DNA from: Isoetes taiwanensis
Lineage: Eukaryota > Streptophyta > Lycopodiopsida > Isoetales > Isoetaceae
Assembly (NCBI GenBank): GCA_021234155.1
Contig: JAJEKV010000064.1
Coordinates: 250,001 to 314,000 of the forward strand
Direction: 5' to 3'
Length of the DNA: 64,000 nucleotides
Within the stretch, counting starts at the first letter, position 1, and every line of letters starts with the position of its first letter. Made by a program: the position numbers and the translations under genes. Positions 1-34,224 of the stretch are shown here, piece by piece. The notes under the pieces are model-generated. The model did not search any database, was not told where the DNA came from, and saw nothing but the letters and a program-made list of their open reading frames with translations.

Positions 1-139
1 TATTGTAGGAAAATTATATCAAAAGTCAACTGTAACAAATTTGGATAAAATGATCATGTGATCACGTGTTCTTTCCGTTTAACCTGTCCTTGTTGAATGG
101 TCCTGAGCTAGTTCTTATGTTTCCTGAAGCCCCTCTCTT

Positions 140-1800
140 TGCTCAATATTGCAGGATTCACCAATAGGGTCCTTCATCTGCTCATCCAGCACTCTATGCT
201 CCTAGATCAGCTCCCACCTCAATGGATATCTCTCACATCCGCCCCTGCTCTTTTTCGGTTTGCAGCTCCCCCACCTCAGTCTCTGGATCACCAAATGTTA
301 CCTCAGTCTCTGGATCACCAAATGTTAAGACTGACTGAAATTCAGAGATCGCAAGAGCAAATTGAAGAGGCTCGTGGACAGTATATGGACATTGATCGGT
401 GTGGCATCCACCCACCACCAAAACATCCATCGGCTCTTCGTCAACTATGAAAATTAGCAAAAGGATCTAATTCCTCTGCATCTCAGCCCTCAGTTCCTGC
501 TTCATGTAGCACTGCTCCTCCCATTGCATCCCAATGTGGTCGCTTTGATCCATTTCAGTGGGCTGGTTTGGTTGATGAGGTTACTGCCATGCCAGATGCC
601 CAGGAAACATCCTCAAATTCCCGTGAGACACCAACGGTCTCATCTGAATTGGCCCCATCACAAGGTCAATGCAGTTACTTTCATAGAATGTTCAGGGGGT
701 AGCCTCCTCCCCCCTCAAATGGAGTCGTATTTCTTTCTATTTATCTAGATTGGATGCTTAGTTTATACGTCTTCAAGAGCACAAGAAGGGAGATGTATCA
801 AAGCTTGCAGACATGATTGGTCGAAGGTTTAATGTTCTTATCGCAGCAGCTGATTCTGCCAGTGCAGGGGTGGTGATAGCATGGCTTCCTTCGTTGCTCC
901 TCATCTTCACTCAGGCTGATCGTTTTGGTCATTGGGCCCTAATTGTATGGCAGAACAAGGGATTAAATATGGTCTAATTAATGTTTACACCCACAAACAG
1001 GCCCCATCGAGAGCTTCACCGCGGGGCCCTCCTTGCGCTGAAGATGCTCAAATTTGGGCTACCACATTTCATGGCTTCTTGTTGGGGATATGGTGGAAAT
1101 GGAGTCTGATCGGTTGGGGGCTACTTCTACACAGATGTCTGGTTTTGAACGCCAGTAGTGGCTCTGCTTATTCCATAACTGCAACCTCTCGGAGATTGAT
1201 GGTGAAGGTGCCTTTACTTGGTACAATGGTCAAGTTGGTGGGGGTCATGCAAGCTCTCGGTTGGATAGAGCTTACCGGAATGCGATGTAGTTGTGGCACT
1301 TCCGTGTCTTTTTTCGGTTCCTCGGCCGCCTCGAGACAACCTCGCCGCACCACCATCCGCAATTCATTTCAGACGAGCCTCTGCAGCCGACGGCGCCCCG
1401 ACGGGACGGACGTTCTCGCTTGAATGTAACGCTCTTATGCCGACTTTCGAAAGGCCGCAAGAACACTTGGACAATTGCCTTCAACCGACGCCGAGGCATG
1501 ACCGCATAGTGGATGCAATTGCGGCACCAAAGGTTTTGCCAAAACAAGGGGGTGAGTCCGCAAATGCAGGTCGTGCTTTATTGGACACCTTGTATCAGGA
1601 CCTGCTCCATTCTTGACAGAGACGTCTTTCAGGTGTTCATGATCGTGATATTTTGGCATAGATCCAAGCATTGGAGGAGGAGCAAATTTAGCAGGCAAAG
1701 ACGAAGGCAGGTCTGCAGTGTTTTCGTGATGGAGACCGTTGTACAAACTTCTTTTTTCCAGCGGCGGCTAAGAGGCATCGCATGAGGCAGCACTGACAAA
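140..1800 (+). mobile_element. L1-type LINE relic, endonuclease region (copy A)
   Basis: This is the remnant of a non-LTR retrotransposon encoding an apurinic-endonuclease-like domain. Across several broken frames one reads HWALIVW and GLINVYTH (endonuclease core), CNLSEIDGEGAFTWYNGQ and SSRLDRAYWN (C-terminal endonuclease), then GRALLDTLYQDLLHS and CFRDGDRCTNFFF, the linker that precedes reverse transcriptase in plant L1 elements. The reverse transcriptase itself does not follow. Upstream, 480-700 reads as a continuous coding-like stretch containing CGRFDPFQWAGLVDEV, possibly the end of ORF1 or the 5' part of ORF2. Stops and frame changes are frequent between 950 and 1,600, but many coincide with CAG/CTG discrepancies against copy B, so some of the decay may be apparent only. 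The family assignment is firm; activity is excluded. Confidence 0.85.
273..327. repeat. 27-bp tandem duplication
   Basis: Two head-to-tail copies of a 27-base unit beginning CCTCAGTCTCTGG. It is also present in copy B near 54,750-54,804, so it predates the segmental duplication. Confidence 0.9.
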
Positions 1801-2159
1801 GCCTGCCCTGGCGTGCCTCCCCAATTCATCTGCCCATCTCAATTATGAGGCGATGTGTCCATATGCGAAATGAAACGATGAGTCTGTGCTTTTACATAAT
1901 TCGTATTGTAACCTTGATTCATTTGAATGAAAATTCATATTCAATTATATGTTATTTAGCTGGATTTGTCAAAAATAAAGCATCAAGTGTTCAAAAGAAT
2001 TCAAGTCTTCAAAAGAACGCAAGACTACACAAAATGAATTACAAAGCATTATGACATTCACTTGTTGAACTTTAACTCAATACAAATTCATTTTCATTTC
2101 ACAATTGAAATACAAAACTTCAGGATTTTCGAGTTCTGAATATTACAAAATTACAGGTT

Positions 2160-2494
2160 TTACATTTTATCGTCATCAGAATGAACTTCTAGTAATTTCT
2201 GTAAAATTTTCTCCTCATCTAAAGGATCCAACCTATATACAGTCCTGTTTTGACATTTAATTGGTGGTATAATTGCACAAATTTGTGTTGTGAAGACTAT
2301 GTCATTAGTATCTTTTTTGCAAAGATCATAGCTGACGGTTGATCTCATACCCTTCGTGTAATACATACCTTCTACAATATTATCCCCGCAAGGTACCATG
2401 TTCCAATCATCAAAATAGTCTTGTTCACATAATTGCCTCACATGCCATCCAAGTAATAGCCACCGCAGAAACTTAAAAGTTCCCTCGTATGCAA
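2160..2494 (-). CDS. Terminal exon of an unrecognised gene (copy A)
   Basis: The reading frame runs from a good splice acceptor (pyrimidine-rich tract ending TTGCAG just beyond 2,494) to a TAA stop at 2,160, giving about 110 residues. It begins AYEGTFKFLRWLLLGWHV, passes through DYFDDWNMVPCGDNIVEGMYY and ends in an acidic tail, LLEVHSDDDKM. I do not recognise the family. There is no signal peptide and no long hydrophobic segment. The protein is identical in copy B over the full exon length, while neighbouring transposon relics differ. No upstream exon could be recognised before the next LINE relic, so the gene may be a fragment. What argues for a genuine exon is the acceptor, the sustained frame and the exact conservation; recent duplication alone could also explain the identity. 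Confidence 0.5.
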
Positions 2495-2784
2495 CTGCAA
2501 TAGAGATTCAGGATTAATATAGAATCATAACTACATCTAAGGTTAATTTTTTTCCCTTCCTTTTCACCTTGGGCTTCGTTGCTCTGGAGAAAAAGCGGAT
2601 CCAGCTTTCCCTTTACGGGCATCTAGCATCGTTACCTGCTCTATATATCTCCTCTAAAGACTTCAGTAGCAACACTCTCCATCCGTGAAAGATGGAGGAG
2701 TTCGCAAGAAGGAACTCGGGGCTTTTCTAAATTTTAGAACTGTTATATTGAAAAATAGTAGATATAATGACGCACGTTTTTGCT

Positions 2785-2865
2785 GCGATGTCATGGTACA
2801 TGGACACCTTAGAATTGCAGGAAATATTGTACCTCCCTTTAAGCAAACCTGCTAAAAAAAAAGAA
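2785..2865. repeat. Dispersed repeat, member 1
   Basis: The stretch from ATGTCATGGTACATGGACAC to the poly-purine run after CCTGCTAAAAA is also found, diverged, at 31,419-31,490 and nearly unchanged at 57,253-57,330 in copy B. The 31.4-kb copy lies outside the duplication, so this is an independent repeat family. Confidence 0.6.
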
Positions 2866-2959
2866 AAAAAGAAAAGAAAAAACTTACCGAGGAAGCATGT
2901 ATTGAGATATTGCTTCAATGAGTGTGATCTTCATTATTCTATACCTATGTGCATCTAGG

Positions 2960-4062
2960 TTTTTACGTTTTCATTTTGGATAGCCAACAAGATGTTCTAA
3001 ACCCATGGCCTTTGTGTAAGTATGGTTTGGAAGCCTGATATCTCCCATGTCTACCATGTTCTAGTAGTATAGTATGTGACGTTCCAAAATTGTATGCTGT
3101 AGAGGCAAGGATCATGTCTCTTGTAGGAGAATTGGATACGGAACTGTAGGTTTGGCTCCAAGAGATCGAGTTAGAAAGGATTTCTTGACGCGTTTTAAAT
3201 TTTTTCAAAATGGCAACTGATACTATTGGTTCCCGTACTTCCACTATATACAAAAGAACTAGTTCTACCAAAACTACAAACAAGTGTGCCTGCTGGAACT
3301 AGTCATAAAGCTCTGCTTTGTGGCAATTGTTCTTCATGACATAAAGATCTTTCCAATCTGCTGTCACCCATTATCGGATATAGGTGTCCCAGTATATGGT
3401 AGTAATGAACTGCATTTCAAAGTATCTGTATGTTTGCACCACTTCTATGTTTTAAGCTTGGTAAGTAAAGTGAGATTGTCTCTATAGAGGATGATACCAG
3501 AAATACCTTGGTCTTTGCCAAGTTGACCCGTATTCCAGTGGCCTAACAAAAGTACTTAGTACATCCAGATGCTGCTATGTACTTGTTAACATATCTACAT
3601 CATCTGCATATATTAGCCAGATGTGATGAGCAAGCTGGGCTCCCCCTTCCCTCCCCCCTCCCCCCCCTGAGCAAGCCAGTTCTCAAAATGATCAATGTAC
3701 ATGCCAAATAGCATAGGAGAGAGTGAACATCCTTGGCCCAATGCACTTCTACTAGTATGATGGCATGATGGTGGCGTTTATGTTGAGATCTTTCCATGTA
3801 GTCTGTATATTGCATTTTTCAATTCTTGAGGGATTCCTAACTTCAATAATCTCTCCCACAGCGTCTCCCTAGGAATAGTTTCCAAAGACTTTGTAAAGTC
3901 TACGAAGCAGCAGTACAAGATCGTGTCGTTTATTTCTGTTGTCCTGTAGCAAGGTACACAATATAAAAATATGGTCAATGGTAGAATGCTTAGGTCTGAA
4001 ACAACTTGTCCAAGTGCGTGCACCCCTGTTTCCTTTGCCCACGCTGTCAATTGCATAGGCAA
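2960..4062 (-). mobile_element. LINE relic, reverse transcriptase region (copy A)
   Basis: A second, different LINE lies on the minus strand. From high to low coordinates the broken frames give FRPKHSTIDHIFIL, then CCFVDFTKSLETIPRETLWE followed by LLKLGIPQELKNAIYRLHGK (reverse-transcriptase fingers and palm), then QGCSLSPMLFGMYIDHFENW and IWLIYADDVDMLT with the catalytic YADD near 3,590-3,620. The segment at 2,963-3,283 reads KSFLTRSLGAKPTVPYPILL, a typical C-terminal LINE segment downstream of the polymerase. Stops and frameshifts separate these pieces and no endonuclease or 5' part is seen, so this is a 5'-truncated fossil. It could not be assigned to a named clade from sequence alone. Confidence 0.85.
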
Positions 4063-4295
4063 TCCACTATTGGCTTGATATATTAGTTTATGCGAAGTTG
4101 CAGAGACATATTAACAAAAGTCGAAGAAATGCTGCTAACAAAGCTAAGTATTTTCTGATTTTTCTAATTTTTAATTTGCTGATTTTTAGTTTTCTAATTT
4201 CTACGTTGTTGCTTTTCTAATTTTCCAAGTATATTTCTGACTTTTTCATTTTTTTAGTTTATGGTTCTAAATGATTTGCTAGTTTTTTAATGTAG

Positions 4296-4660
4296 GTCCA
4301 TGGTCATGCTGAGGCACCAAACTGTTTTGAAGCTATTTTAAGAATGATGAAAATGGTTCAAGAGGCCAATTCAACTTCTAGCTAATTTGTTGCATCCCAT
4401 GTGGAGAGAAGAGGTTACATTTATCAATTCAGAACTAATAGATGCATGGATGAGTTATGCAAAATTTTTACCTGCATTGATGATTGTGGCACATGCTCTT
4501 TTAGCTATACCTTGGCTAGATATTCTAAACGAGGTGCACCCTGGACTACCTCTGTCATCGGGTCCTACATCATATGCTGGAGCCTCTGGGCGCCTCTGGT
4601 TTGCCTAAGGTTTTGGAAAATGAAATACAAAGACTCATCTCTATATGGGTTTGCCTAAGG
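4296..4660 (+). other. Exon-like segment of unknown origin (copy A; copy B at 58,772-59,134)
   Basis: After an acceptor-like TTTTTTAATGTAG, a frame opens with VHGHAEAPNCFEAILRMMK and ends at a stop at 4,385. An overlapping frame from about 4,383 gives a cysteine-bearing stretch, RCMDELCKIFTCIDDCGTC. Either could be an exon with the other a shadow. The sequence is conserved between the two duplication copies. I cannot name the protein, and the alternative that it is non-coding remains open. Confidence 0.3.
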
Positions 4661-5101
4661 TTTCAGAATATGAAATGCGAAGACTCAAATCTCTACCTAA
4701 ATAATTCAATATTCTAATAAGAATGTTTTAACCAATGCAACCAGTGAACTAATGTAAATCAATCGAATTGATGTCTAGGTTGAGGTTTCTTGGCGCCTGC
4801 GGCTAGGGCGGCGGCGGCAGGGAAGGTCGCCCTCTTCCTTGCCCTTCCGGCACTGCAGCAGTTGGTCAGATCGGATTTAGAGAGGCTTCAGCGGCTAGCA
4901 GGGATAAGGCAAGCATTTTTTTGGGTTTGCATCTCTCATTAGTCTAGAAGATTTACGGTTTGGGAAGCATCTCCAGGGCAGGTTCTTGATCTCACAGGTA
5001 AACCACTAACGTGGTATTTTGTTCTGATGCTTTGGCTTGCATCATAATCTTTCTTGCAAAAAGATTACACCGAAACAACGTGGATGCTCATAAGGTGGAA
5101 C

Positions 5102-5132
5102 CACACTCACCCCGGTTTTTGGTCCACTGTTG
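5102..5132 (+). repeat. Left terminal inverted repeat
   Basis: A 31-bp terminus beginning CACACTCACCCC and including TTTTTGGTCCAC. It pairs with 15,924-15,954 at 27 of 31 positions. A second inverted match lies just inside: AAAACATCCACTGT near 5,241 against its inverse near 15,798-15,812. Confidence 0.85.
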
Positions 5133-5306
5133 AAAACATCAGTTTTGGTAGGTCTACATGTCCTGTTTTCAAAGAATCCTACATGTGGATTTGTGGAGGT
5201 ATGGTTTTGTTCGATAATGGTGTTCTTTTTTCAGTGGACTAAAACATCCACTGTTGTTTTGTAGTTTCTTCTATTGTGACATGTCATTTTATAATACAAT
5301 CCACTG

Positions 5307-5650
5307 TAGGAAAGAATACTTGAATTTCTACATGTCTAATAATTCTATTGTCACATGTCTTTATAGATGTAGGAAAGAATATTTGATTCTCTACATGTCC
5401 TATACTTCTATTCACATGTCTTTATAGTAGTAGGACAGAGTACTTTATTTGCTAAGGCATTGTAGGAAAGAATACATGAATTACGACATGTGTAATACTT
5501 CTATTATCACATGTCTTTATAGAAGTAGGAAAGAATACTTGATTCTCTACATGTCCTATCCTTCCATATCACGGGTCTTTATAGTGGTAGGACAGAGTAC
5601 TTGATTTGCTACATGTGATGCACGTGCACGATCACATGTCCTTATACTAG
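5307..5650 (+). repeat. Subterminal ~62-bp tandem repeat
   Basis: About five and a half copies of a ~62-bp unit beginning GTAGGAAAGAATACTTGA or GTAGGACAGAGTACTT and containing CACATGTCTTTATAG. Unit starts are near 5,307, 5,370, 5,431 (short), 5,462, 5,525 and 5,588. Such arrays close to the ends are typical transposase-binding regions in CACTA elements; that role is inferred here. Confidence 0.8.
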
Positions 5651-5865
5651 TATTCCATGCAAGACAAGTTACTTCAACTGCTTCAATTACTTAACGCCTA
5701 TTTTGCATAACAAAACCATCAAGAATTTGATTTGTATTCCTTGATTCGGGTGCATGACCGCTGCAACAAATCCCTAAGCATTAATGTCATAGGACCACGC
5801 AAAATCTTAACAATATCCTAACACCATCAAGTCCATGTCCATGTCATTCATATCTTGCCTTGGTC

Positions 5866-6815
5866 ATTCATGCGTTGGAGCCTACGTGGCATGTTGGAGC
5901 GTAGGTGGCATGTTGGAGCCTAGGTGTCATGTTAGAGCTCACGTGGCATGTTGGAGCCCGTGTGGCATCTTGCATGTTGGAGCTGATGGTGGCATATTTG
6001 AGCCACGTTGGCATGCTTGAGCCTAGGTGGCACGTTGGAGCCAACTTGGCATGTTGGAGCCTATGTGGCATGTTGGAGCTCACGTGGCATGTTGGAGCCT
6101 AGGTGGCATGCTAGGTGGCATGTTGGAGCCCACGTAGCATGTTGGAGCGTAGGTGGCACATTGGAGCCTAGGTGGCATGCTAGAGCTCACGAGGCATGTT
6201 GGAGCCTAGTTGGCATGTTGGAGCCTACGTGGCATGTTGAAGCCTTTGTGGCATGTTGGAGCCTAGGTGGCATATTTAATCCACGTTGGCTTGCTTGAGC
6301 CTAGGTGGCACGTTGGGGCCAACGTAGCATGTTGGAGCTCACGTGGCATGTTGGAGCCTACGTGGCATGTTGGAGCCTAGGTGGCATGCTAGGTGGCATG
6401 TTGGAGCCCACGTGGCATGTTGGAGCCGTGGGGTGGCATGTTGGAGCCTAGGTGGCATGTTGGAGCCTACGTGGCATATTGGAGCCTAGGTGGCATGTTT
6501 GAGCCACCTTGTCACGCTTGAGCCTAGGTGGCATGTTGGAGCCACCTTGGCATGTTGGAGCCTAGGTGGCATGTTGGAGCCTAGGTGGCACGTTGGAGCC
6601 TAGGTGGCATGCTAGAGCTCACGAGGCATGTTGGAGCCTAGTTGGCATGTTGGAGCCTACGTGGCATGTAGAGGCCCAGGTGGCATGTTGGACCCTAGGT
6701 GGCATATTTGAGCCACCTTGGCATGCTTGAGCCTAGGTGGCACGTTGGAGCCAACTTGGCATGTTGGAGCTCACGGGCATGTTGGAGCCCGTGTGGCATG
6801 TTATAGCCTAGGTGG
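5866..6815 (+). repeat. 19-bp satellite array 1
   Basis: Roughly fifty imperfect copies of a 19-bp unit with consensus CATGTTGGAGCCTAGGTGG. Variants at the TAGG position include CACG, TACG and AACT. Because 19 is not a multiple of three, all frames are open for short stretches and give spurious MLEPRWHVGA-type peptides, which are not genes. Confidence 0.92.
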
Positions 6816-6829
6816 CCGACCCCCGTGAG

Positions 6830-9370
6830 ACGGACATCACAAAGGTTACCGAGGCGTGCTTTCCTACCGGTGCTCCTCCCGAGGGCAAATGCCAATGCCT
6901 CCCTTCCCCGAACCTAGTTTCCCTATCCGACCGCTGAATTCTCCATTCGTAACTTGCTCGAAAGCAGGCTCAAAAATTCAAGATCCGTCCGGAGAACATA
7001 TCAAACCGCAAAGTGTCCCCGCAATGAATCGTGTAGAAACCCAAGTGTTTTGTCGTTTGGGCAGTACAAAGGCTCCGGAATGGAGATTTGACTTCCTCAT
7101 ATCGTCCGAAACAACGAAATTACCCTAGGGACCAAGTTACACGGTCATTTTTTGCAGCAAAAGAAACACGAATCCTCTACATGGCAGTATTCTGCACCCT
7201 CCGCTAAGCCAATTCACTACGAACGTGTTGGACATGAGCTACTTTGGCGCTTCCGGGAGCAGGGATGGTCTTCTGCCCACGAAACTTGGTCTCCAGGGTA
7301 ATGTCGATGTTTTGAGTCCGTTGGCAGAGTCAGATCACAGTTCCGGGGTGGGAGAGTTGCCCGTCCGTGGCCAAGGACCCTCCAGAGAGGACCTTTGGGA
7401 CGAACTTCTTCTGAAAGGTTTTAGGGCTCCGTCTTCTGGCATCAATGCCCTCCCACTACCTCATGACATTGTGCAAGATCCTGGTCCAATCTGGCTAGGG
7501 TATGGCCTCCAAAACGTAAACCCTGTGCGTTGCTAGGTTATTGTAGGGTTTACGTTATGGAGGTCGAGTTTTATTCAGTTGCACTTGAGACATGGTCGAG
7601 AAGCTACAGTTGAAAACAAGAAGCAATAGAAACTGACGAAATGGGGTTTGGATTTACCGAGGCAGGCTTTCCTACCAGTGCTCCTCCGGGAGGGCAAATG
7701 CCAATGCCTCCCTTCCCGGAACCCGGTTTCCCTATCCGACCGTTGAATTATCCATTCAAGTAACTTGCTTCGAGCAGGCTCAAGAAAATTCAAGATCTGT
7801 CCGGGAAAACATATCCCTCCGCAAAGTGTCCTGCAGTCGAGAAAGGACTTTAGGGCGAACTACTTCCGGAAGGTTTTAAGGTTCCATCTTCTGGCGTCAA
7901 CACCCTCCCTCTACGTGATGACATTCTGCAAGATCCTGGTCGAATCTGACTAGGATATGGCCTCCAAAACGTAAACCCTGTGTGTTGCTAGGTTATTGAA
8001 GGGATTACGTTATAGAGGTCGATTTTTAGTCGGTTGCACTTGAGACATTGTCGAGAAGCTACAGTTGAAAACGCGAAGCAATAGGAACTGACAGAATGGG
8101 GTTTGGATTTATCCTCCTCCCAGTGTGGCAATTGGAAGTCAAGAGCGCCTTTTGCAGTAGCAAAATTGTTTGGGATCATTCGGGATGGCCAATAGATCCA
8201 AACTCTGTTATTTCAGTTGCTATGGCTCCGCATGCATGTCTAGAAAAGGTGCACCTAGTTATCCAGGAAAACGACCATGTTTTGACCTCCGAAATGTAAA
8301 CCCTACAATAACCTAGCAACACATAGGGTTTACGTTTCGGAGGCCAAAACGTGGTCGTTTTCTTGAAAAACTAGGTGCACCTTTTCTAAACATGCATGAG
8401 GAGCCATGGCAACTAAAATAACAAAGTTTGGATCTATTGGCCATCCCGAATGATCCCAAACAATTTTGCTACTGCAAAAGGCGCTCTTGACTTCCAATTG
8501 CCACACTGGGAGGAGGATAAATCCAAACCCCATTCTGTCAGTTCCTATTGCTTGGCGTTTTCAACTGCAGCTTATGGATCATGTCCCAAATGCAACCGAC
8601 TTAAACTCGACCTCCATAACGTAAACCCTTCAATAACCTAGCAACACACAAGGTTTACTTTTTGGAGGCCATATCGTAGTCAGATTCGATCAAGATCTTG
8701 CAGAATGTCATCATATAGAGGGAGGGTGTTGAAGCCAGAAGATGGACCCTTAAAACTTTCCGGAAGCAGTTTGCCCCAAAGGTCCTCTCCCGAAGGCCCC
8801 TGGCCACGAACGAGCAACTCTCCCACTCCGGAATTGTGAATTGATCTGTCAATTGACTCAAAACGATGACATTACCCTGGGGACCAAGTTTCGTGGACAG
8901 TAGACGACCCCTTCTCCAAGAAGCGCCAAAATAGCTCATGTCCCCCAACACGTTCGTAGTCAATTGGGCCAAGAGGTGGCTGCAGAATACTGCCATGTAG
9001 AGGGTTCGTGTTTCTTTCATTGCTAAAAATGACCGTGTAACTTAATTCCTAAGGTAATTTTGCCATTCCGGACGACATGGCGAAGTCGGATCTCCATTCC
9101 GGAGCCTTTGTACTGCCCGAACAACAAAACACTTGGGTTTCTACACGGTCGACCGCAAGACGCTTCGTGGTTTGATAAGTTCCACCGGATGGATCTTGAA
9201 TTTTTTTGAACCTGCTTGAAGCAGGTTACTTGAACGGCAGATTCAACGGTTGGATAGAGAAACCAAGCTTTGGGAGGGGGGTCATTGGCATTTGTGCTCC
9301 TAGAGGAGCGCTGGCAGCAAAGGCTGCATCGACAACCTTTCTGAGGTCTGTCTCATGGGGTGTGGCCTCT
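6830..9370. repeat. Large imperfect palindrome with nested direct duplication
   Basis: The sequence folds about a centre near 8,314, where CCGAAATGTAAACCCT faces AGGGTTTACGTTTCGG. The right arm (8,325-9,370) pairs with the inner left arm (about 8,000-8,303) and then with the outer left arm (about 6,830-7,560). The left arm additionally holds a partial direct duplication: 7,650-7,990 repeats parts of 6,840-7,540, including the segment with TTTCCTACC and GTGCTCCTCC. Open frames of 60-120 codons occur on both strands but mirror each other and resemble no known protein. Confidence 0.85.
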
Positions 9371-9654
9371 CCCCTCTGGTGAGGAAGCGCGCAAAGTCCT
9401 GGCCTGGTTCGATTTGGGTAAGGGTGTCAGCGTTTTAGTTCTTCAAGATCCCTCTATTTTATCCCTTGCCAAACCTGTCCACAAAAAATTCCAAAGGTTA
9501 TCATAGTTCTTGCATAAAGTCCTAGTCATCATGTCCACGTCATCACCATCTAGCCATGTCACCCAACATTTGCCAACATCACCCAATGAAAAGACCAAAG
9601 ATGAGCATCTTTTCATTTTTAGCCTAGTCAAAACTTGGCCTTGCTTACTTGGCA

Positions 9655-10480
9655 TGCCATGTCACCATTTGGAGTGCCTAGGTGGCCCAGGTGGCATATT
9701 GGTGCCTAGGTGGCATGTCTGAGCCACCTTGACATGTTGGAGCCTAGGTGGCATGTTGGAGCCACATGGCATGTTTGAGCCACCTTGACATGTTTGAGCC
9801 TAGGTGGCATGTTGGAGCCTAGGTGGCATTTTGAGCCACCTTGGCGTGTTGGAGCCCGCGTGGCATGTTTGAGCCACCTTGGTATGTTTGAGCCGAGGTG
9901 GCATGTTGGAGCCCACGTGGCATGTTTGAGCCACCTTAGCATATTTGAGCCACCTTGGCATGTTGGAGCCTAGGTGGCATGTTGGAGCACACATGGCATG
10001 TTTGGTCCACCTTGGCATTTCAAAGCCTGGGTGGCATGTTTAAGCCCTCGACCTTTTCAAAATGCTTAACTAGCAAAATGTGGGATTTCCATCACGCCCT
10101 CAAAGATCCCCATAGATCTATGACACACAACAAATTTGATAACCGCAGCTGCTCGCTTGTGGAATCACCGAAAAGGAAAAATTGTGGTTTTACAAAGAAA
10201 CTTCTATCGACGATGTGGAATCTGGCCCTTAGGGCCATCTTGGCATGTTTGAGCCACCTTGGCATGTTAGAGCGTAGGTGGCATGTTGGAGCCCACATGG
10301 CATGTTTAAGCCACCTTGGCATGCTGGAGCCACCTTGGCATTTCAGAGCCTAGGTGGGATGTTTGAGACACCTTGGCATGTTGGAGCCTAGGTGGCATGG
10401 TGAATCCCACGTGGCATGTTTGAGCCACCTTGGCATATTGGAGCCTAGGTGGCATGTTGGAGCCAATCAAGTGGCATGAT
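9655..10480 (+). repeat. 19-bp satellite array 2
   Basis: Same 19-bp unit and same orientation as array 1, with a higher share of the GAGCCACCTTGGCATGTT variant. It is interrupted at about 10,045-10,235 by unrelated sequence. The two arrays flank the palindrome. Confidence 0.9.
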
Positions 10481-10489
10481 GGATCCTTG

Positions 10490-11990
10490 TGGTACAACAT
10501 TTGAACCATAACAAATAACATATGAGATCAATCAAACCTAAAAAACAGGAGTTTAAACAGCTTTGATAGCTGGTGCTTTCATTTTGGTTTCCCAATACTT
10601 AAAAAACAATTTTATGGCTTGCAATATAAGGAGAGCACAAACCCTAGGTCGTGCACCCCTTGAGTTAATAATAATACAGTTGTCACTAATTCCTTACAAG
10701 GACTGGTTAAAGGCTAACATGCAACCTCATGCCACCCTAACCAGTAGAGTGAGACAATGATCCCAGATCATGCGGTTACCCCGGGCAAAAATGTCTAACA
10801 ACGGACTTTACTCACCATGAAATCCCAGATTCCCACGTCCAAAATTGTTCAGGACTCCTAGATTTTTAACGAAAAGCCGAAGCTTTCAAAATTGCAAATT
10901 TTTTCCCGGATTAATTGAAGATAACAACTGGTTACCTCGAGCTTAACAAGCTCGATTGCATCACTCAGTTGCCCTAGCCGAACCCTATCATATCCAAAAG
11001 GGTATAGTAATATTCACCAAAACATTAATATTTTTAGGGTCTTGCCCTTTTCCATGTGGTTCGCCTACATTCCACTCATCGAGCCCCTACCGCTCATGAC
11101 AAACCAACTCATACTCCCGAGTGCTAGAATTTACAACCTATTTTCCTTTTAGCAAACCCAGTTTGCAAGAATGCAAAGAGTTTGTACTACCAACAAGTGC
11201 CCTTGGCTCTTGTTAATTACTAGTTCAAATAGTACCAAATATATTAGCTAAAATCATTAATAATAAATATTAACTAAGCTAAGTAATAAATCATTAAAAC
11301 CCCTTTAAATTTTAATGGTTGATAATGGGTTACAAAATCCCCGATTTCATTAATGGGATGATAACAGGTCTTGGTTACCTTTAACAAAAAAATATCACAA
11401 AATCAAAAGTTAGAATTACTTAAATCGTGATTCCGGCGGTTACATAATCAATCACCCAAGGCTGCTTTGGTCTAGTACGCTTGATCACAAAAATTGCTTT
11501 CTAGCTTCATCTTTACCAGATATTTTGTATTTATGCAATCAGAGAATTATTCTTTTCTTTTTCTTCTAGGCTAATGACTCGACCCGACATTAAGGTCGAT
11601 AATATCCCGCGGCAATGGCCCGTAAAAATATGGCCTAGTGGCCATGTGGCTAGGAAAGTCCAAGGATGTCATCTAGCCCATATGATTTAAACCTAGAAAG
11701 CCTCAACGTTGTCATGTGTGAAGTTTAAAAAATAGGCATTATAAATTTGTATCACATCCAACCGCGAGATGAGTGGCTAAGATTATGATCCGTGTCATTG
11801 AATCCTATTGGCCCATTTTAACTACCGAGATTAACTAGCCGATTTGATCCGCCCTCCAATTTTTGCCGCTTTTATCTCCCTCCTTTTTTTTCTTGGCTTT
11901 TCAACCGAACGTGGGCTCCGCCAAGCTCCTCCGCCATGCCTCCCGACCATGCTCCTCGCCATGCTCTTGGGCCATTTCCTTCCTTGCTTC
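10490..11990. other. Unassigned transposon interior
   Basis: Low-GC sequence without a credible gene. The short open frames near 11,840-12,400 overlap on both strands and look like shadows. Confidence 0.5.
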
Positions 11991-11999
11991 GCTTCCTTC

Positions 12000-12135
12000 C
12001 GGTGGCATACGATATCAAGGAGGGCATCGCTTTCCTTCCGATGGCATACGATATCAAGTTTCCTTCCGATGGCATACGATATCAAGGAGGAAAACGCCGG
12101 CTGATGCATACAGATATGGCATACGATATTGGAAG
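12000..12135. repeat. Short repeats with GGCATACGATATCAAG
   Basis: Four spaced copies of GGCATACGATATCAAG or close variants, usually preceded by CTTCCTTCCGAT, within about 130 bases. The period is irregular at 30-60 bp. No function is evident. Confidence 0.7.
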
Positions 12136-12139
12136 GAAG

Positions 12140-14280
12140 GCCAAGTATCCGAAGCTTCGTTTCCCGCCTTTGCAAGACATCGGCATCACCGTATGGCCTT
12201 CTTGCAAATGACATCTCTCAGATGCTCCCCTTTTGCTTGCGATTCTCTCCAAAGTGGCCCTTGATTGCACCTCCTGCTTCTTTCCGATCCAATCTTCTTA
12301 GCAAAGATTTTCTTCAAATCGCAGTCGCACCATTATCTTCGCCTCCCTATCGCTTGGATCTCGCCTCGAGTTGGATCTCGCCCAGACTTCTTTTCTTTCA
12401 TAATTGTTATGAGAATAGGTAATTTGACAGGTGAGAATTTATGCATTTTTTATTAGATGTTAATAACTTATCAATGATGTCTAAGATGAGATTGATTTTC
12501 GTATGCCAGATACAATGATCATCTCCAACATGCCAGATACAGGATCATCTCCAACAACCTTTTCAGCACTCATGCTACTTTGTTACACATCTACTCATGC
12601 CGCTCTGATAATCCACAAGCCTCTTCTTGTCATAGCAGATATCCTCTGCTACCACACAGTCCTGCAAAACCTTGATATTGCAGAGATCAAAAGCTTTTGG
12701 TTGTGCAACGGGCTGCATCTGATTTTTCAAAACTTCTTATGGTACAACGAAAACCTCTTATGGTACAATGATGAATGATGAACAAAATATCTTTCCACTA
12801 TTTTTTATTTATTCCATATTTTGCTTTTGCTTCCCTGAATAACTATTTACAGGTTTATCTGCGTTTGCAGCCTTGTACTAGCAAGAGGAGAGAGATCATT
12901 GGACAATGCTTGCAACTGCAGCAGCAAAGCTGCAAGGCTCACATCTCGGCCTTTTTTTTGTAACCATAGTAGTACAGCCTCGGCCTTCTATTTTTGAAGA
13001 ATAGTACAGATGTTGCAAGCCTTGTTTATTTGCAAGTACAGGTTTTGCAAAAGATGTAAGATCTTTTGATCAGAAGGGATGGCAGGTTATGATTTTCCTC
13101 CTTTTAGCCTTTGTTCGTGGCTATGTTGTAGCAGTATATTCTAAATATCATTGTTTTCTTTGTACCATTGATGTCCAGAATAATTTTCTCTCCGAGCAAA
13201 GATTAAAGGCTGTAAAACAAGAATGTAAAATCTTGTTTCTAAAAAAAGAATGGCAGCAATAAGTTATTTTAACCAAATGCTTTAAATAAATGCAAACCAC
13301 CAGCGCAAAAAACAACCATTATTTAAGAGCTATGCACAACCTTATTAATTAGATTAAAATAATATCTACACTTTTTCAACATGTCTTTCATTGGAAAAAA
13401 ACATGTCCTTTCTTAGAAAAACACCTAATAAAAACTGGAAAAACATGTTTTTTGTTAAACGTGCCACATGACAAGATTTGATTAGTTAAAAGGATGTCCA
13501 CGTGTAAAGCTGTGCCACGTGTAAAGCTGTGCCACGTGTCAAGATTTGATTGGCTAAAAAAAGATGTCAACGTGTAAACCAAACGTGTTGTTTTTGTAAA
13601 CTTAAAAAAAGTCCATGGATATTTTACGTTGGTTTTCTTGCAAAAACAACACTTGGAAATAACTAATTTAAGAAATAATGTGTCTACTTTTTAATAGCTA
13701 CATATAATATTGAGGAAAACAATATTTGAAATAGCAATTATTTTTAAATGCTACATGTGGATTTCTTTAAACACTACGTGCTTTCCTCCGATCCAAATTG
13801 CTACGGTTCCAGCATGCCACGATTTGGCGTCCAGGCTCCCCTTCTGATCTGCTTGGCCATGGAGTAGCGGGTTCGGCCATGGCATAGCTTCACGGCAGCA
13901 TCACACACTGGCTTTTCGGCAGCATCAAACACCGACCTCCCTCTGCTCCATGGATTCAGACACAGCTTAGCCAGGCGGGCTTGGCAGGTCGCCTTCAATC
14001 GGTTTGCAGGCCTTAGCAACACGTGGTCTTGAGTCCGGTTTGTTTTGATTTTGCCTTGGGTTTTGCCTTTGCTTCTGTTGGTTCTGTTTTACCTCAGACC
14101 TGCTCAGCCTTGCTTCCTTTCTGTGCTCTGGGTATGATCTAGCTTCAGCGTTCCCTGCGTGGATACCTTAGCCCCGACAGGGTTTCTTCACCACCCTTTG
14201 CTTCTCGTTTGGCTTCCACCAATTTGTCTTCCCTCGGCTTGTCTCTGCTTTGCCCTGGTTCCTGGCTCCTTTACCATTGC
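12140..14280. other. Unassigned transposon interior
   Basis: No gene is supported. At 13,480-13,570 a motif, TGTGCCACGTG plus TCAAGATTTGATT, is repeated about three times. A diverged relative (TTTGCCACATG, ATTTCATTGGTTAAA) occurs at 51,470-51,545 beside the large inverted repeat, hinting that the two elements share subterminal sequence. Confidence 0.4.
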
Positions 14281-14289
14281 CTTGTTCTC

Positions 14290-15250
14290 AGCATGGCCCG
14301 TAAGATCAAACGTATGGCCCGGGAGACCCGTAAGGAGAAGAATCTCATTCGGCTGCCTCGAGCCCCCCCTGTCCCCCTACCTATGACCCCAATGATTGCC
14401 CTTACCTTCAGACAAACCCCATCATTTGGGCCCCAAATACCCTCTCCCCCGTACCACCGCCCCCGATGCCTCTTTTTAGTCACTCTTTAATCGCTACTTT
14501 GACATCCTTGATGCTCGCCCGTTGTTTGCCCGAGGGTACTTGATGGGATCCATACGGCCCCGCGCCAACGCCACTCTCACCGAGACATCCGCCTAGCTGC
14601 CACCGCAGGTCGGTCCAGCTTTACTAGAATTATCAAGTATAGGCCTCAGGGGCAATGTACCGGCCCCAGGGGTCACCAGCAGCAGCCTATGTGGCCCTCC
14701 CATGCACAAAGTGAAAGTGGTTCGCCTATGACCGGGCCGACACACAGCCTATGTTCGCACGTACTCCTCCAGAGGATTTGCCGCCCCCTGTCCAGGCTGC
14801 TGCCGAGGTTCCGCTTCCAGATGCTGGTACGGCCCCAAGTTACTCACCGGGCCTTTCTCTCAAGCATTGTGGGTCTTATGAGATTCGGGTGATTCGCCCC
14901 CACAGAAAGCAAAGCGGCCTCTTTTTTGCTCGGAGATGCACATTCATGCCGACGGCATCCTTTTCAAGATCTGGCCGGGTGGGAGCAAAGACGGCCGACC
15001 GCCCCGCCATCTCTTGGTTTGCTTTCAAAATGCTCTTTCCAGACTGCACGTCTTGCGGCATGGCAATCATTTGAAGGGGACCACCTTCTCAGTGCAGGAA
15101 GATTTGACTCCGGTGCAGCTCTGCAGACGGAAAGAGGAATTATGCCGGGTCCGAGAGGCCCGCCTGCAGCAGAAATGGGCAGTGTACAGAGGCGGTCGAG
15201 CTATCATTAGGGATCAATGGCCAACTGATGCCTGGGCAGTCTTGGTCTAG
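14290..15250 (+). pseudogene. LINE ORF1-like relic carried in the transposon
   Basis: The clearest part is the frame at 14,936-15,247. It contains LFKIWPGGSKDGRPPRHLLV, then LKGTTFSVQEDLTPVQLCRR, then KWAVYRGGRAIIRD. The order of G-T-x-F-x-V-x-EDLTP-x2-L-x2-R followed by a basic segment ending in a short RGGRAII-type strand matches the C-terminal part of ORF1 proteins of L1-like retrotransposons, which bind the element RNA. Upstream, 14,290-14,930 is GC-rich with proline-rich frames broken by stops and could be the ORF1 N-terminus. No endonuclease or polymerase follows. Its presence inside a DNA transposon means either capture or nested insertion. Confidence 0.5.
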
Positions 15251-15254
15251 CCCT

Positions 15255-15445
15255 GGGTTTTGAGTGATAACGGGGCTTTGTCCCCATGTTTTGTTGTAAT
15301 GGGGCTTCGTCCCCATGTTTTGATTGGTTTTTACTTGGGCTTCGGCCCACGGTTCTGTTGGGGCTTCCGCCCCCTTTGTTTGTTCTGGTCCCATAGCCCG
15401 ATTGGGCTCCGTGGACGTTAAAATTCTCTTCCTTCCTTCCTTCCT
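15255..15445 (+). repeat. GGGGCTTCGTCCCC repeats and (TTCC)n
   Basis: Several copies of GGGGCTT(T/C)GTCCCC or GGGCTTCGGCCC, each a small self-complementary motif, are followed by a TTCC run at about 15,428-15,448. It lies directly after the ORF1-like stop and could be its 3' UTR and tail. Confidence 0.55.
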
Positions 15446-15625
15446 TCCTAAGAAAACAATGACAAATTTTAAAAATTACAAGTAGAGGAAAAAAACAAAA
15501 CGCATAGAAAAAGAGAAAAAGATCTGTCTTTTTCCCTAAGAAAACAATGACAATTTTTAAAAACTACAAGTAGAGGAAAAAACAAAACACATAGAAAAAG
15601 AGAAAAAGATCTGTTTTTTTTACTT
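15446..15625. repeat. Right subterminal tandem duplication
   Basis: Two ~95-bp copies starting TAAGAAAACAATGACAA and ending in AAAAAGATCTGT. Related A-rich sequence with ACAAGTAGAG occurs at 54,180-54,470, just left of copy B. Confidence 0.8.
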
Positions 15626-15923
15626 CTTCATGTGTAGTAATACGTAAATCTACGCGTGTAATTTTCAAAAAACAATGCATGACTTCTTAAAAAAACAACA
15701 GTGACAAAAAAAAACCACGTGTAGAAAAAACTGATAAAAACAATAGTGAAAAAAAGGACACGTTGACAAAAAAACAAAAAGCTGCTGGAAAAACCACAGT
15801 GGATGTTTTTGCCAAAAAACCACTGTCTCTTTGTGCAAATCCGGATAAACGGGCCACGTGGACTTTTGGGGCCATTTTGGTGTTGTTTTTGGCATAAAAC
15901 AACACTTCCGTACAACTAAAAAA

Positions 15924-15954
15924 CAACTGTGGACCAAAAATTGGGGTCAGTGTG
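15924..15954 (-). repeat. Right terminal inverted repeat
   Basis: Reverse complement begins CACACTGACCCC and continues with TTTTTGGTCCAC, matching the left terminus. It is followed immediately by the duplicated AAC. Confidence 0.85.
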
Positions 15955-16770
15955 AACAGATCAGTGTGATTTCTAGAACAGAGAGGTTTCTTAGCCTTAC
16001 AAAGCCTTTCAGTCCTTATTTTTCTACAGAGCCCGAAAATTGTTGGCCATTCTCGTCCCTTGTTTCTTTCTCCGACTCTTTCTTACTAGCAAGACAGGTC
16101 CAGATTTACTATGTTATGATCAGAAATTTTCATGTTCGGCAGGATGTCTTTTGGATTTTGGAAGCATTGATTTATTGAAGAAGAATAACATGTCGTATGT
16201 CAGGGCAAAATGCATTGATCATTCAAGCACTGAAGCTTGAAATATTGTATCCTGGGGCTATTTTAAGAACTGTTATGCTTGGAATAGCTATTTCTTTGGT
16301 ACTAATATGCCAAATACCAGGTTCCATCCAATCTGATTTGGATCACTCGAATACTGCTATGTTCGAGTTGCGTATCTATGGTACTGATATACCAAAATTA
16401 CAGGTTCCATTCAAACTTGAATACTGCTATGTTCAAGTTGATTGGAATTCTATGGCTTTTCTCTGATGTTCCATGGTACTTCTTCTATTCCTCATGCTTC
16501 TGAATGCTTAATTTGGCACTCCAAGATTACATGAATCTTTCGGGAGTTTTCTTTCCCAGTATCTTCTTGTATATTCTGGTTACCAAGTTGGAGGATTCAT
16601 GCGCTTAAAGTTTATTAGCTCTTAGAGCAGATAATAAGCTTCTGCACAAAGAGGATTTGCTTCTCTATGTGTAGTGAAGCATTGTACTTTTTATCATATC
16701 ATATATAATATAAAAATTGGTACCTTCAAAAAAAAATAAAAAATAAAATAAAAAAAAATGTAAATCAATC

Positions 16771-19378
16771 TTGTTAATTTGGGATTTTCAGGTTTGGCAA
16801 AAACTTTTTTGGAATTTTTTTTAGCCCAATTTCCTAAGATTTGGAGGAAGTTAGACGCCTGGAAAAAATTCCGATCAATCAAAAATCGCATAAAATTAGT
16901 TTCATATATATGATTTGGTGTTTTGGAATTTCATGGCTTTGGGTTATCCATCCCGGATTTCTAATCCTGGCTTTCCTCAGCGTCGAGACACATCGATGCC
17001 ACTTGCGTAGGCATTGAGCGGCATCTCCAATTGCAATTCTATGCACTGCCTTCAATTTATTTTTCTCTATTGGCTTCCTTTGTGCTGTCAGTCCGTGATC
17101 ACCAAGGTGGTTTTATAACATGTTTAAAAACAATAATTAAATATAATGCTTTATATGCATGGTTTGTGGTTGTGGTATGGTATGGTGGTAATAAGGCGTG
17201 GTTTAATATATTGTTATATATACCTGATTCTTAGAGTGATAAAATAGCATGACTTATTGATGTGGTAAATATTTATGATTCTCATTGTGTTTACGTGTCA
17301 TAGGTCATGATTGTTTAATGGCCTTGCATGTCTATATGTCGAAGCCATAATGCTTTTGGTATGGAACAGTGGTTTAGTAAATTTTTTATGGAGTGGTTAA
17401 AGGTCATAAATAACTAACGTTTTGTTTTCCAAAGCATACTAAGACACCATATAATTTTATTTGCCTAACCTGTAGTGGTTTCTTTGTCCAACTCCAAACC
17501 CTTCCTAGTTGGTGTATTCTTTGAAGCATATATCACTAACGTCTTGTTTTCCAAAGCATAGGTGTATATGACTAGTGGTTTCTAAAAGATCGTCCCAAAT
17601 TCCATATGCTTGCAAGATCAAAAATAATAAAAACAGATAAAACAGAGCTCTCAGGATTTGAACCCCAATTTAACCATATACTATGCATTATCCCCAAAGT
17701 GGATACTTTAGTCGTGCACTAAATCACTAATTCTCGCTAATTCTCCCTTATTGCTAATTCTCATCCATTAGATCAAGGAATATCCCCAATCTAATGCCTT
17801 ATCGCTCTACTTCAACCGTCCATAAAAATCATGATGGGGTCAAACTGTTATTTCCATGTCACCATATGGTTCTGCGTCCATTGTAGGAGGTCAAATATAC
17901 TAGTCAAATCTTATTTACTATTTTCAAGCTTCAGGAGAACATTCCAGCCAAAGTTGGCATGCACACAATGTAACGCCATTGAAATAGAACAGCCAAGCAA
18001 ACAAAGCAAGTTCAGATTGGCGCAAACAAATGAACCAAATTTGGTGACGACTTCCACCCCTGGATCCCTCCACCACGACAACACAAGTATAACTACAGCT
18101 CCTCTATACCTGCACCTTTTACAGTGACCTCCTTCCTGACAGCAACACTCCAACATTAACGCCTATAGGCATACTAAGAAGTTAGCATAAACCAAGCAGG
18201 AGAAGAAAAATTCTACTGCAACTAATTAACTGTTTATCAGTGTTTAGCCCACTATGCACTACATTCACAGAGCTTGCAGCCCTTTCTGACGCATACTAGG
18301 AGTAGAGAGTTAGTGTGAATGTGAATGCAGAGGTAGAGAACACAGAAAGCTTGTTGTCTGGCTTCACATGTCATTGCTGTCACATGCGTACGCTCCAATT
18401 GCCACGACTTCTTCTGCTGCATAGTTTGAACATTGGCAGGAAGAGGAGCTGGAGAAATTGCTTACATAAACACATGTGCACTACATGGACAGTTGAAGTT
18501 CAAAGGAGGGGTCTCCATGCCATTCCTGAACAGCCCATCCTGAAACCTGAATCCATTCTCAAGTATGCACAGTTTAGAAATTCTGCCCAATAACAGACCA
18601 ATTCATACCCCATAGCATCGGTACTACCTTGAACATGTGCTGCCTTCGGTGAAGCCCACATGTCGCACCATGCAACCACTACTTCAGTACACCTACATAG
18701 CCTGCGCAAAGAAGTTAGGCTGGAGCACGGAGTTAGGCTGGAGAAGGGCCTTTGTTAGCGCTGTTGCACTTGTAGCTGCTGCCATAGCCAAGAGCTGAAA
18801 GAATATTCATAATTTAGAAACAGTGCCATTGCCAAGAGCCACAAGAATATCTATAATTAAGATCACGAAAAGAATATAGATGCAAAACAAAATTGTATTC
18901 CAATAAAAGGTCTCAAAAAAGAGAGTTATTGATTGCTGACATAGCCAAAAAGCTTTGTTAAATACAGTAAACCCTACTCCGCTGTGTGGATTTGATTGAG
19001 CAAAAGACGAACATTGTGAAGCATTTAAGTTGAAAGAGAAGCATTTACTCTAGGAATAAGAAACCCACTGACCAAGCAATCAGCTAAAACTTCTAGCACC
19101 TCGTTAGTCTTATAGAGTTGCTTCAGTCTGAAACTTTTCTTAAATGGGAAATGCCTGCAGATAAGATTAGGCTCCAGAAATGCACAAATTGGACAGATGG
19201 TGCACTGGCAAGTGCTGCTCTATAAAAGCAAAAAGCAAAGATCCCATAGAAGCACATGAAATGACAATAAAAAATAACGGAATTTTCAAGTGAGATCAAG
19301 ACTATGAAATTGATGACATAAATTTACAGAAGGGAATATAGCAAACAAACTGTAAGAACTCCTTATCTGTCATTTATT
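16771..19378. other. Non-coding flank of the duplicated unit (copy A; copy B at 60,388-63,022)
   Basis: No credible gene. Copy B lacks about 10 bp near 17,735 and has about 19 extra bases near 61,630. Part of this interval is presumably 3' UTR or downstream sequence of the minus-strand gene ending at 19,379. Confidence 0.5.
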
Positions 19379-20028
19379 TCAGTAGTTCGAACTCATGGGG
19401 GGAGCATTAGCAGAGAGAAGAGATCTTGATCTTGTATTCTGCAGTGAAACTGCTTCATGCCAAGTAACTACAAAAATGAAGGAGAAAAATCAGTACATCT
19501 TAAAAAAAAAATTTTAATCATCTCAAAGTGCGAAAGTAGACCACAGACATGTAAAAGAGGATACCTCCAAAACGCAGCATCAGGTTGGCTTGTATGATTT
19601 CCTTGATTATGGTCGTCAAACTTTCAATGGGAATAACTCTCTAGTTTCTGGTATGGGTTTGCAATGAAACAGGATACAAACTTAGAGATACATCACTAAA
19701 GGAGATACATTTGTCAACAGAAGAACATACCTTCAAACAAGTCATACCTTAAAACCTGAAGAAAAATACCACTGTACCTGCAAACTTAAAGAGAATCCGC
19801 TCTCACACATGCAAAACTGAGAGTTGCTATTGACATTGTTTCTATGTTTCTAGAAGCAGTTCCTTAATATATACCTTGAAGCAAATCCACATCAAACATG
19901 GAAGAAGGAGATGCAATGATGCGATTTCTAACCAATGCCTTCCCTCGTTCCCATGCTTTGCCCATTGCCATTTGTGCTTCCTGCGGTTGGAAGATCAAGA
20001 AATAAGCTCTATAACTGCGTCTATGCAT
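19379..20028 (-). CDS. Four-exon 3' end of an unrecognised gene (copy A)
   Basis: Four exons join in consistent phase with GT-AG borders: 20,028-19,875, 19,777-19,756 (a 22-base microexon, least certain), 19,638-19,565 and 19,467-19,379. The predicted product is 112 residues, reading MHRRSYRAYFLIFQPQEA, then KAWERGKALVRNRIIASPSS, MFDVDLL, RVIPIESLTTIIKEIIQANL and VTWHEAVSLQNTRS, ending SANAPPMSSNY. The first exon follows an acceptor (TTATTCTTGCAG), so the ATG shown may be internal and more exons may lie upstream. I do not recognise the family. There is no membrane segment; the composition is that of a soluble helical protein. The phase consistency across three introns makes a genuine gene likely. 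Confidence 0.6.
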
Positions 20029-20285
20029 CTGCAAGAATAAAAAAAATTAAGGAGAAGAAGAAGGGATGCCATGTTGCAGACCTATCAGCCAGGTTTTAGC
20101 CTCTTGCCAGCAGACTCTACAAAATGTTCTGACCAGCCCCTAGACACACCATCGCCAGTTCTGTCACTCCCTTCTTTTGCCCTACTGCCACGTTAGGAGC
20201 AAGAAATCAGGAAGGGCATGGCCTGTTTGCCCTCCATCAGAGCGAGAAATTTAGAAAACCTAAAAACGTTAGGGAGTTACCCCGA

Positions 20286-21556
20286 AACGTTAGTGTGTAT
20301 TGTTTTGTTTAGGCCGTTAGATGATGGCATCTTTGTGGGAATATGCCGGCAGGGCAGATCCCCGCCTCTCCCTATGGGTCAAGATGGGGTCAAATTGACC
20401 CCACTTTATAGGGGTGCTCCCGGCATAAATACCATTGGCTTAATAAGCACAAACACCGTATTGTACAAGAAAGCAATCCTACATCCCAAATACCACATGC
20501 CATCTGGGCCTGGGGAATTGAACGCCAATTATATTCCAATGCCCATGGATCTAAGGCCATACTGGCCTGTATGCCAGAATTCAGAGGCTTGTGATGCAGA
20601 TGAGAAGGGCAGCATGCCGACATCAAGTCTGGTTACGCTGAATGTGGCCCTGCCCTAAACCATCCAAGATGAAAACAAATCAAAGACTGTTTCGAGTCTT
20701 TGATTGTATCTGTTTCGATTCTTCTTCAACGGACTAGCACCTTCAGGATTGCAAGTAGAAAATGATGAAGATTATGCTACAGGTCACGACCATCAACACA
20801 AGCCCACGACCATCATGGTGTGCACGGCAAAACATCTCTGAGCCCATCCACAGCATCAGCCTCGCACAGAACCATGGCTTCCAGCAAAATATAGAAGAGG
20901 AGCAAAATATTGAACGGCAATCATTGGTGCAAATCCGACCTCCGCCATAGCTGTGGCACTGCTCTTGGCACAACTGATAGAGCTAGAAACAGGGGAATCG
21001 GAAACGGAACTTAGGCTACAAGATGAAACTGAACTATATTTGTTCCTAGCAATGGTGTTACACCGCAGCTACATTCATCAAATCCCTCGTCAAGGAAATT
21101 GAAGGCACCCTTTGCATCGATCCCAGCCTCAGAGAAGATGCTCAGGCATTTTGGCAAGACAAAAAGCAGACTGCAAAAAATTGCCCAGTCTTTTCCCCTT
21201 CCGATTTACCCATCCACGCCTGAAATTCTAGTCACCAATCCTTGCAATGGATGGACTCACAAATAGCCGGAGATTTGAAGAAGCTACTGCAAATTTGAAA
21301 GGAGGACCTGCTCCTCCCCTTCATCGCCATGCTGCCACCAGCAGGAGCCGCAATTAGAAAACCCATGGCAGTCCAACATCTGCCCATGACCCACGCGCGC
21401 TCTTATCCACAATCTAACCTACGCCAAACACAAAAATACTGCTTCTTCCCCTAACTGACTTGCCAGCGTCAGCTTTCTACTTTTCTAGATACGAATACAG
21501 TAAAAAACAACTAAGAATCTTAAGTTATAAACATACGGAAGTTGATCGTGCACACA
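20286..21556. other. Copy-A-only segment
   Basis: Present in copy A and absent from copy B, where the flanks join with about 10 bases of filler. It holds one open frame on the plus strand (20,218-20,658, 146 codons) with no recognisable motif. On the minus strand near 21,300 a frame opens MGFLIAAPAGGSMAMKGRSR, which could be a first exon but is unsupported. No inverted termini or target duplication were visible, so a deletion in copy B is as likely as an insertion in copy A. Confidence 0.6.
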
Positions 21557-33206: not shown

Positions 33207-34224
33207 TTATAGTTTAGGGGCATTTTGGTAAGCATCCATATCCTTAGCAACTCGATCTGCCTCCATCACACCTTCTGCCACTTTAATAACAGGATTTGGA
33301 GGTAAATGTCTCTGTATAACATAAAAAGGTGATAAACCTGTGGCTGAGTGTGTGGCCATATTATAAGCAAATTGAACCACTGGCAGATACCGCTCCCAAT
33401 CAGAAACCTGCTCATGTACAAAACTGCGTAACATGCTTAGAAGAGTTCTATGAGTAACTTCTGTCTGCCCATCCGTCTGAGGATGGAAAGCTGTGGAGAA
33501 ATGCATCCTTGTACCTAAATTTGTAAACAATGCTCTCCAAAACTTGCTGCAAAACTTTGAATCTCTGTCAGAAATTATTACCTCTGGCAATCCATGGTTC
33601 TTAAATACTTCTTTCAAAAATAATCGTGCAGCATCATGAGCTTTTAATGTCTTTTTGCAAGGAATAAAGATTGCATACTTACTGAGACGGTCCACAATGG
33701 TCCAAACCTAATCATTACCTTGTCTGCTCCGTGGAACACTAACAAAGTCCATACTGACATGTCGAAAAGGTTTTTCTGGAATACTTAGTGCCATCAATAA
33801 TCCTAATACCTTGGCATGAGAATCTTTGATTTTCTGACACACAAAACACAACAACATCATTTCTCATAGTTTTCCAATAGAAATACTTTGAAACCAAATC
33901 ATGAGTATTAAAAATACCCCTATGACCTGCTATTGGTACCTCATGACATTCTCGTAGAACTGTTTCCCTGAATTGTGGAGCAACACAAAGACAATGTTTG
34001 AAAAACAAATATCCTTTGCGTAAATAGAAATTGTCAATAATACGTTGCTGGCTTTCATGCAACTCAATCCAAACACTACCAAATTCATCATCTTGCTCAT
34101 ACATACCCTTCATTGCCTCAAATGTGCTTTCCCGCCAAAGGGAAAAATTATTCACCTGAATAATGTCATCTGGATGACGCATGCGACTAAGAGCATCAGC
34201 AACTTTATTCTGTGGACCTTTGAA
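33207..34224 (-). pseudogene. Ty3-type integrase with fused RNase H tail
   Basis: It starts with the RNase H terminus NKVADALSRMRH, then the zinc-binding region with HEVPIAGHRGIFNTHDLV. A frame slip follows near 33,840 in the CxxC part (VVVFC / CVCQKIKDSH). The catalytic core reads MDFVSVPRSRQGND, then DRLSKYAIFIPCKK, ISDRDSKFCSKFWRAL and HPQTDGQTEVTHRTL, supplying the D-D-E triad. The 33,207-33,695 part is open for 162 codons up to SATGLSPFYVIQRHLPPNP. A chromodomain is absent. Confidence 0.85.

Follow-up and report, generated by a model that had tools for sequence, protein, structure and literature searches.

A base-resolved insertion of a large non-autonomous CACTA-like element with CACACT ends in Isoetes taiwanensis

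The element, its empty site and its interior

We analyzed a 64,000-nucleotide stretch of the Isoetes taiwanensis genome (contig JAJEKV010000064.1, positions 250,001 to 314,000 of the forward strand; hereafter the window), in which a region is locally duplicated as copy A and copy B, and found that copy A carries a CACTA-like element of 10,853 bp (5102–15954, + strand) with AAC on either side (5099–5101 and 15955–15957). The left edge reads GGTGG-AAC|CACACTCACCCC, with the element starting at 5102, and the right edge reads GGGGTCAGTGTG|AAC-AGATC, with the element ending at 15954. Its 31-bp termini (5102–5132, + strand; 15924–15954, − strand) are inverted, begin CACACT(C/G)ACCCC, and agree at 27 of 31 positions, the mismatches lying at positions 7, 13, 14 and 27. 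Further inward, the subterminal motif AAACATCCACTGT (5242–5254, + strand) recurs in inverted form at 15796–15808 (− strand). Both the terminal and the subterminal matches had been proposed in a first-pass annotation made from the sequence of the window, and they were borne out here.

The same annotation held that copy B keeps the unoccupied target and thereby resolves the element to the base, and our comparison agrees. The uninterrupted 13-bp target GGTGGAACAGATC occurs a single time in the window, at 59568 in copy B (59568–59580, + strand). In self-comparison of the window, 1–5101 aligns with 54480–59575 at 97.1% identity, and 15954–20287 aligns with 59572–63914 at 98.5% identity. Hence, the break between these two blocks is the insertion point of the element. 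A 4-kb genome query from copy B (57500–61500) was matched at full length only at copy B and was split by the element at copy A among the best 40 of 5531 candidates. Just upstream of the point where the alignment of copy B begins, there is also a 2.4-kb palindromic stretch (51660–54033) that is 82% self-complementary.

About 1.1 kb surrounding the target site (59254–60372) is part of a repeat found elsewhere in the genome, and we read six outside paralogues of it, 86–95% identical, across the site. The exact uninterrupted 13-mer was present in five of the six, and the sixth was uninterrupted too, but diverged. Hence, the empty state is ancestral and the element was gained by copy A, so that its insertion post-dates the local duplication of the region, as had been suggested.

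Much of the interior is repetitive. On the left, tandem repeats of about 62 bp (5305–5445 and 5462–5616, + strand) are followed by a first array of about 50 units of a 19-bp repeat (5874–6816, + strand), which is common to the family loci that we read. Next come non-coding units of about 815 bp in tandem and inverted order (6821–9360), making a palindrome, and then a second and a third 19-bp array (9685–10040 and 10234–10466, + strand). The body also includes a segment of about 3.3 kb that is common to two other family copies (L001 and L002; L-numbers denote loci read and C-numbers contigs), and about 510 bp of right subterminal DNA, in which region an 87-bp tandem duplication lies (15447–15620, + strand). 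The subterminal repeats comprise the one inverted 13-bp motif, and TACATGTC is repeated on the left side only. A single copy-specific passenger was found, a nested interspersed repeat of 1,660 bp (13787–15446, + strand) that is missing at that point in both L001 and L002; many of its genome copies share a 3' end and start at varied 5' points, a pattern that makes it probably of retroposon type.

Coding cargo was looked for and none was found. Ten of the 31 listed open reading frames (ORFs) of the element had no Pfam match above the cut-off (best, DUF2024 at E 0.11), and no Rfam family reached threshold in the window. Across 35 copies of the 815-bp unit of at least 700 bp, from 14 sources (loci L094–L096 not among them), variation was 0.1116, 0.1106 and 0.1109 in the three codon phases, and gaps were mostly of 1–2 bp; hence, the units have no coding signal. 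Searches by tblastn found no match inside the element either with ORFs from Transposase_21 loci of this genome (E up to 1e-4) or with the transposase-like gene described below (E up to 0.05), in line with the earlier statement that this copy encodes no transposase. The 10,853-bp element reads as a large non-autonomous CACTA-like member of an abundant family. The first-pass annotation had called it a non-autonomous passenger with unusual cargo: non-autonomous it is, but it is not alone, and what it has inside is typical of its family, which numbers hundreds of copies.

A high-copy family with 3-bp target duplications

We searched the I. taiwanensis assembly (1,658,258,908 bases in 1110 contigs) for further copies. 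The exact 31-bp end pattern, which covers both ends, gave 963 matches (480 on the + strand and 483 on the − strand), relative to none for the reversed control, and a 26-base pattern with up to three mismatches gave 1881, again with none for its control, a count that may include the sister type described below. Both patterns required a CACACT start, so these matches are not independent evidence for CACACT termini. CAC...GTG inverted termini were found in the window element and in six copies that had been found by similarity (L001–L006), and four of these (L003–L006), which were retrieved by a left-end query shortened by its first three bases, also begin at CACACTCACCCC, the DNA outside differing from copy to copy. 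In these four copies, the ends do not extend beyond the point read in the window. With a 216-bp left-end query, the best 40 of 1039 candidates were all 100% identical (the locus of the window itself was outside those 40), and with a 220-bp right-end query the best 40 of 1161 were 95–100% identical.

Target duplications were read at facing neighbors, 7.7–30.4 kb apart, among part of the listed ends. All of the first 20 pairs had identical 3 bp in their flanks, with no longer match in any, whereas random re-pairing of those flanks in 10,000 trials produced 1.5 matching pairs out of 20 on average and never more than 7. Nine further pairs, right-end variants included, had the 3-bp duplication in eight cases; the failing pair, on C536, has a third end nearby, and re-pairing post hoc of 18010 with 46640 gives CAG/CAG. 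The 9,385-bp copy L001 has TTA/TTA. The duplicated triplets were varied, with 16 kinds in 20 pairs (ATT, CTT, TAG, GTT, ACA, ATG, ACT and others), and A/T-rich (48 of 60 bases). Our confidence is high that the insertion is real, that it is resolved to the base, and that it comes from an abundant CACTA-like family that is non-autonomous and has unusual termini.

At 19 of 20 family loci, of which most were read over part of their length, the sequence examined contained the 19-bp repeat; the locus that lacks it is a 9-kb piece of C534 that holds a gag frame of a long terminal repeat (LTR) retrotransposon. The repeat also occurs in a sister family (L051, positions 1–10000, on C890), which shares the CACACT terminus, has a different interior, and has 1064 candidate left ends, of which 40 were scored. 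No transposase was seen in those 10 kb by ORF list and tblastn. The one sister-type pair examined, on C1052, with both ends of left type, had no duplication, and its ends may belong to different elements.

A candidate transposase gene and its linkage to CACACT ends

The longer family copies that we opened for a transposase held mostly nested pieces of long interspersed nuclear elements and LTR retrotransposons. A candidate for a transposase-bearing relative, which the first-pass annotation had proposed to look for, lies at C112:978919-999898, a 21-kb element with CACACT ends and an ATC/ATC duplication; it also has 19-bp arrays and one or more of the 815-bp units. A 10-kb piece inside it (L094) has ORFs that, as first judged by eye, look like the C-terminal region of a CACTA transposase. 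Genome searches gave 98 matches with the L094 ORF and 93 with a second gene piece, from another locus (L098), where the gene lies as four ORF pieces whose breaks may be either introns or damage. The matches form a close group, in which many copies have in-frame stops, and a distant group, about 33–43% identical, with several frames of 600–970 codons.

Three motifs follow one another in the gene pieces: D..A, C..C and D.MH. Among six Transposase_21 proteins of the host, D..A followed by C..C 18 residues on was present in two, and C..C followed by D.MH in three. A FnI_RECK match of one gene piece (E 0.0034, below the cut-off) was taken as chance, and searches against solved structures gave nothing usable. 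Between L098 and the copy L099, divergence was about 1–2% in the first three gene pieces, 7% in the fourth, and 15% in downstream DNA; between L098 and L097, it was 2–6%, 4% and 15%, respectively. This lower divergence in the gene pieces than in the DNA downstream suggests past constraint.

The gene is tied to CACACT ends at two loci, C112 and C911. At C911, a left end that is 100% identical (161318, + strand) lies 10.8 kb upstream of the start of a gene locus (172115–176129, + strand) on the same strand. By rough arithmetic, with 21 gene loci and 120 listed ends, a locus would come to lie up to 15 kb inside an end about 0.01 times by chance, and one was seen. The 1.49-kb segment that separates the gene from the 19-bp array of C112 recurs in colinear form, over at least 1419 of its 1491 bases, at 21 places, among them C112 itself and C911, and a gene match lies within about 12 kb at 20 of them, the exception being C1053. 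At C1045:18298-18333 kb, two gene copies with the downstream segment share one orientation and are separated by about 31 kb.

Several results weigh against a CACTA-type family mobilized by the lineage of this gene. The C112 copy is interrupted, with five TGA codons in one piece, and the gene pieces had no Pfam or NCBIfam match above the cut-off. All three motifs in order were found in none of the six host Transposase_21 proteins, and comparison with their six loci gave no similarity by BLAST or hhalign, with thin profiles. Synonymous and non-synonymous counts among three gene copies were few and do not show constraint. As for linkage, no gene locus lies near any of the 40 right ends listed with the 220-bp query, nor near any of the 40, in an overlapping list, from a search with a variant right end made to find further end-gene links. 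Were all 21 gene loci inside family elements, each list should contain about one end that goes with a gene locus; a single case across the three lists is thus rather few. Up to C578, the point to which the 26-base pattern listing appears to hold all zero-mismatch ends, gene matches occur on nine contigs (C35, C43, C112, C135, C141, C176, C181, C271 and C452), and only on C112 is the gene inside listed ends, or one of three for the close group (C112, C141 and C271). The termini also differ from those of the CACTA (En/Spm) superfamily, being CACACT(C/G)ACCCC rather than CACTA in the window and in L001–L006, as had been noted; among CACTA termini, the variant CACTG also occurs.

Mobilization in trans and relation to known CACTA elements

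We consider it likely, at a probability of about 0.7, that the element is an insertion of a CACTA-type transposon family mobilized in trans, likeliest by the gene lineage of C112, after the local duplication. This value is not higher because no listed right end could be tied to the gene and because, of the nine low-numbered contigs, a single one has the gene inside ends. The interval in copy A would be one insertion of a high-copy CACTA-type DNA transposon of the cut-and-paste kind that has CACACT ends and lacks a transposase. An enzyme provided in trans would cut at the CAC...GTG ends, as the enzymology of the superfamily suggests, and insertion at a staggered site would leave the 3-bp duplication, the ends and the duplication being observed. 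The likeliest source of the enzyme would be the lineage of the broken gene observed inside the C112 element, and the element would have entered copy A once the region had been duplicated. With moderate confidence, we infer that the new gene belongs to the family's enzyme; its lineage would probably be the mobilizing one.

The strongest alternative, which we regard as unlikely, is mobilization by an ordinary TNP2-type Transposase_21 of the canonical CACTA elements of the host, with the new gene nested in the C112 element and near the C911 end by chance. The domain is abundant (at least 167 genome matches, with 150 scored out of 2311 candidates), family copies frequently contain nested retroelements, and the absence of a gene locus near the 80 listed right ends fits such chance nesting. 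However, the gene-end proximity at C911 exceeds its chance expectation, and six 10-kb pieces read at Transposase_21 hits showed neither CACACT ends nor the 19-bp repeat, although element ends may lie outside the pieces; nor was an autonomous relative found among them. One of the pieces has a 25-bp match, at 88%, to the right subterminal region of the element, and the one plausible end pair in them is of CACTACTA type. This pair lies at L054 (228–8682, on C1045), a Transposase_21 locus with possible CACTACTA ends and a TAT duplication, which suggests that canonical CACTA elements exist in the same genome. In the window itself, a 278-aa ORF (37226–38059, − strand) has a DUF7869 match (E 1.2e-19) and is matched, at 41% identity, by an ORF that neighbors another Transposase_21 locus (L057). 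An LTR retrotransposon remnant with integrase core and integrase zinc-binding matches lies at 33210–34398 (− strand).

A PIF/Harbinger-type element is very unlikely. That superfamily likewise makes 3-bp duplications, and one ORF inside the family copy of C357 (L095:1113-1598, − strand) looked Harbinger-like by eye only, but it had no Pfam match, the ends begin CAC, and the 16 triplets in 20 pairs go beyond TWA, to which the 3-bp target of PIF/Harbinger is characteristically restricted. Least credible is precise excision of the element from copy B in place of its never having been there: cut-and-paste elements are known to excise, but no excision footprint was seen in copy B, and five of the six outside paralogues carry the identical 13-mer without interruption, the sixth being uninterrupted but diverged.

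The likeness to CACTA (En/Spm) elements lies in the CAC...GTG ends, the terminal inverted repeats, the 3-bp target duplication, in part the subterminal repeats, and the abundance of copies without a transposase, and a further difference is that the linked transposase-like gene is missed by Pfam Transposase_21. Background on the superfamily is given in PMC8978399 and PMC4158355. According to PMC8978399, tandem repeats or satellite DNA can occur within Jozin, a group of CACTA elements in Chenopodium, where a satellite array had been added near the 3' end of an element that has a Transposase_21 domain; in the window, in contrast, arrays and 815-bp units form much of the body of a copy without a transposase. 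A 20.5-kb soybean CACTA element (PMC2613891) is likewise very large and is called putatively autonomous in its title, whereas that of the window is non-autonomous. The main text of the I. taiwanensis genome paper (PMC8566536) has no mention of CACTA, and none of the titles and abstract openings listed from open-licence literature describes a lycophyte or Isoetes CACTA family.

The finding adds a base-resolved, abundant non-autonomous family in a lycophyte. Tentatively, the CACACT elements and the unrecognized gene may form a distinct CACTA-type lineage, found here in the I. taiwanensis genome alone, whose non-coding, satellite-built derivatives expanded to hundreds of large copies, the distant protein group being relatives with longer open frames. 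If the gene is indeed the enzyme, it would represent a CACTA-type transposase lineage missed by Pfam and NCBIfam. With empty sites, exact duplications and a candidate source gene, the mobilization in trans of very large non-coding elements becomes testable.

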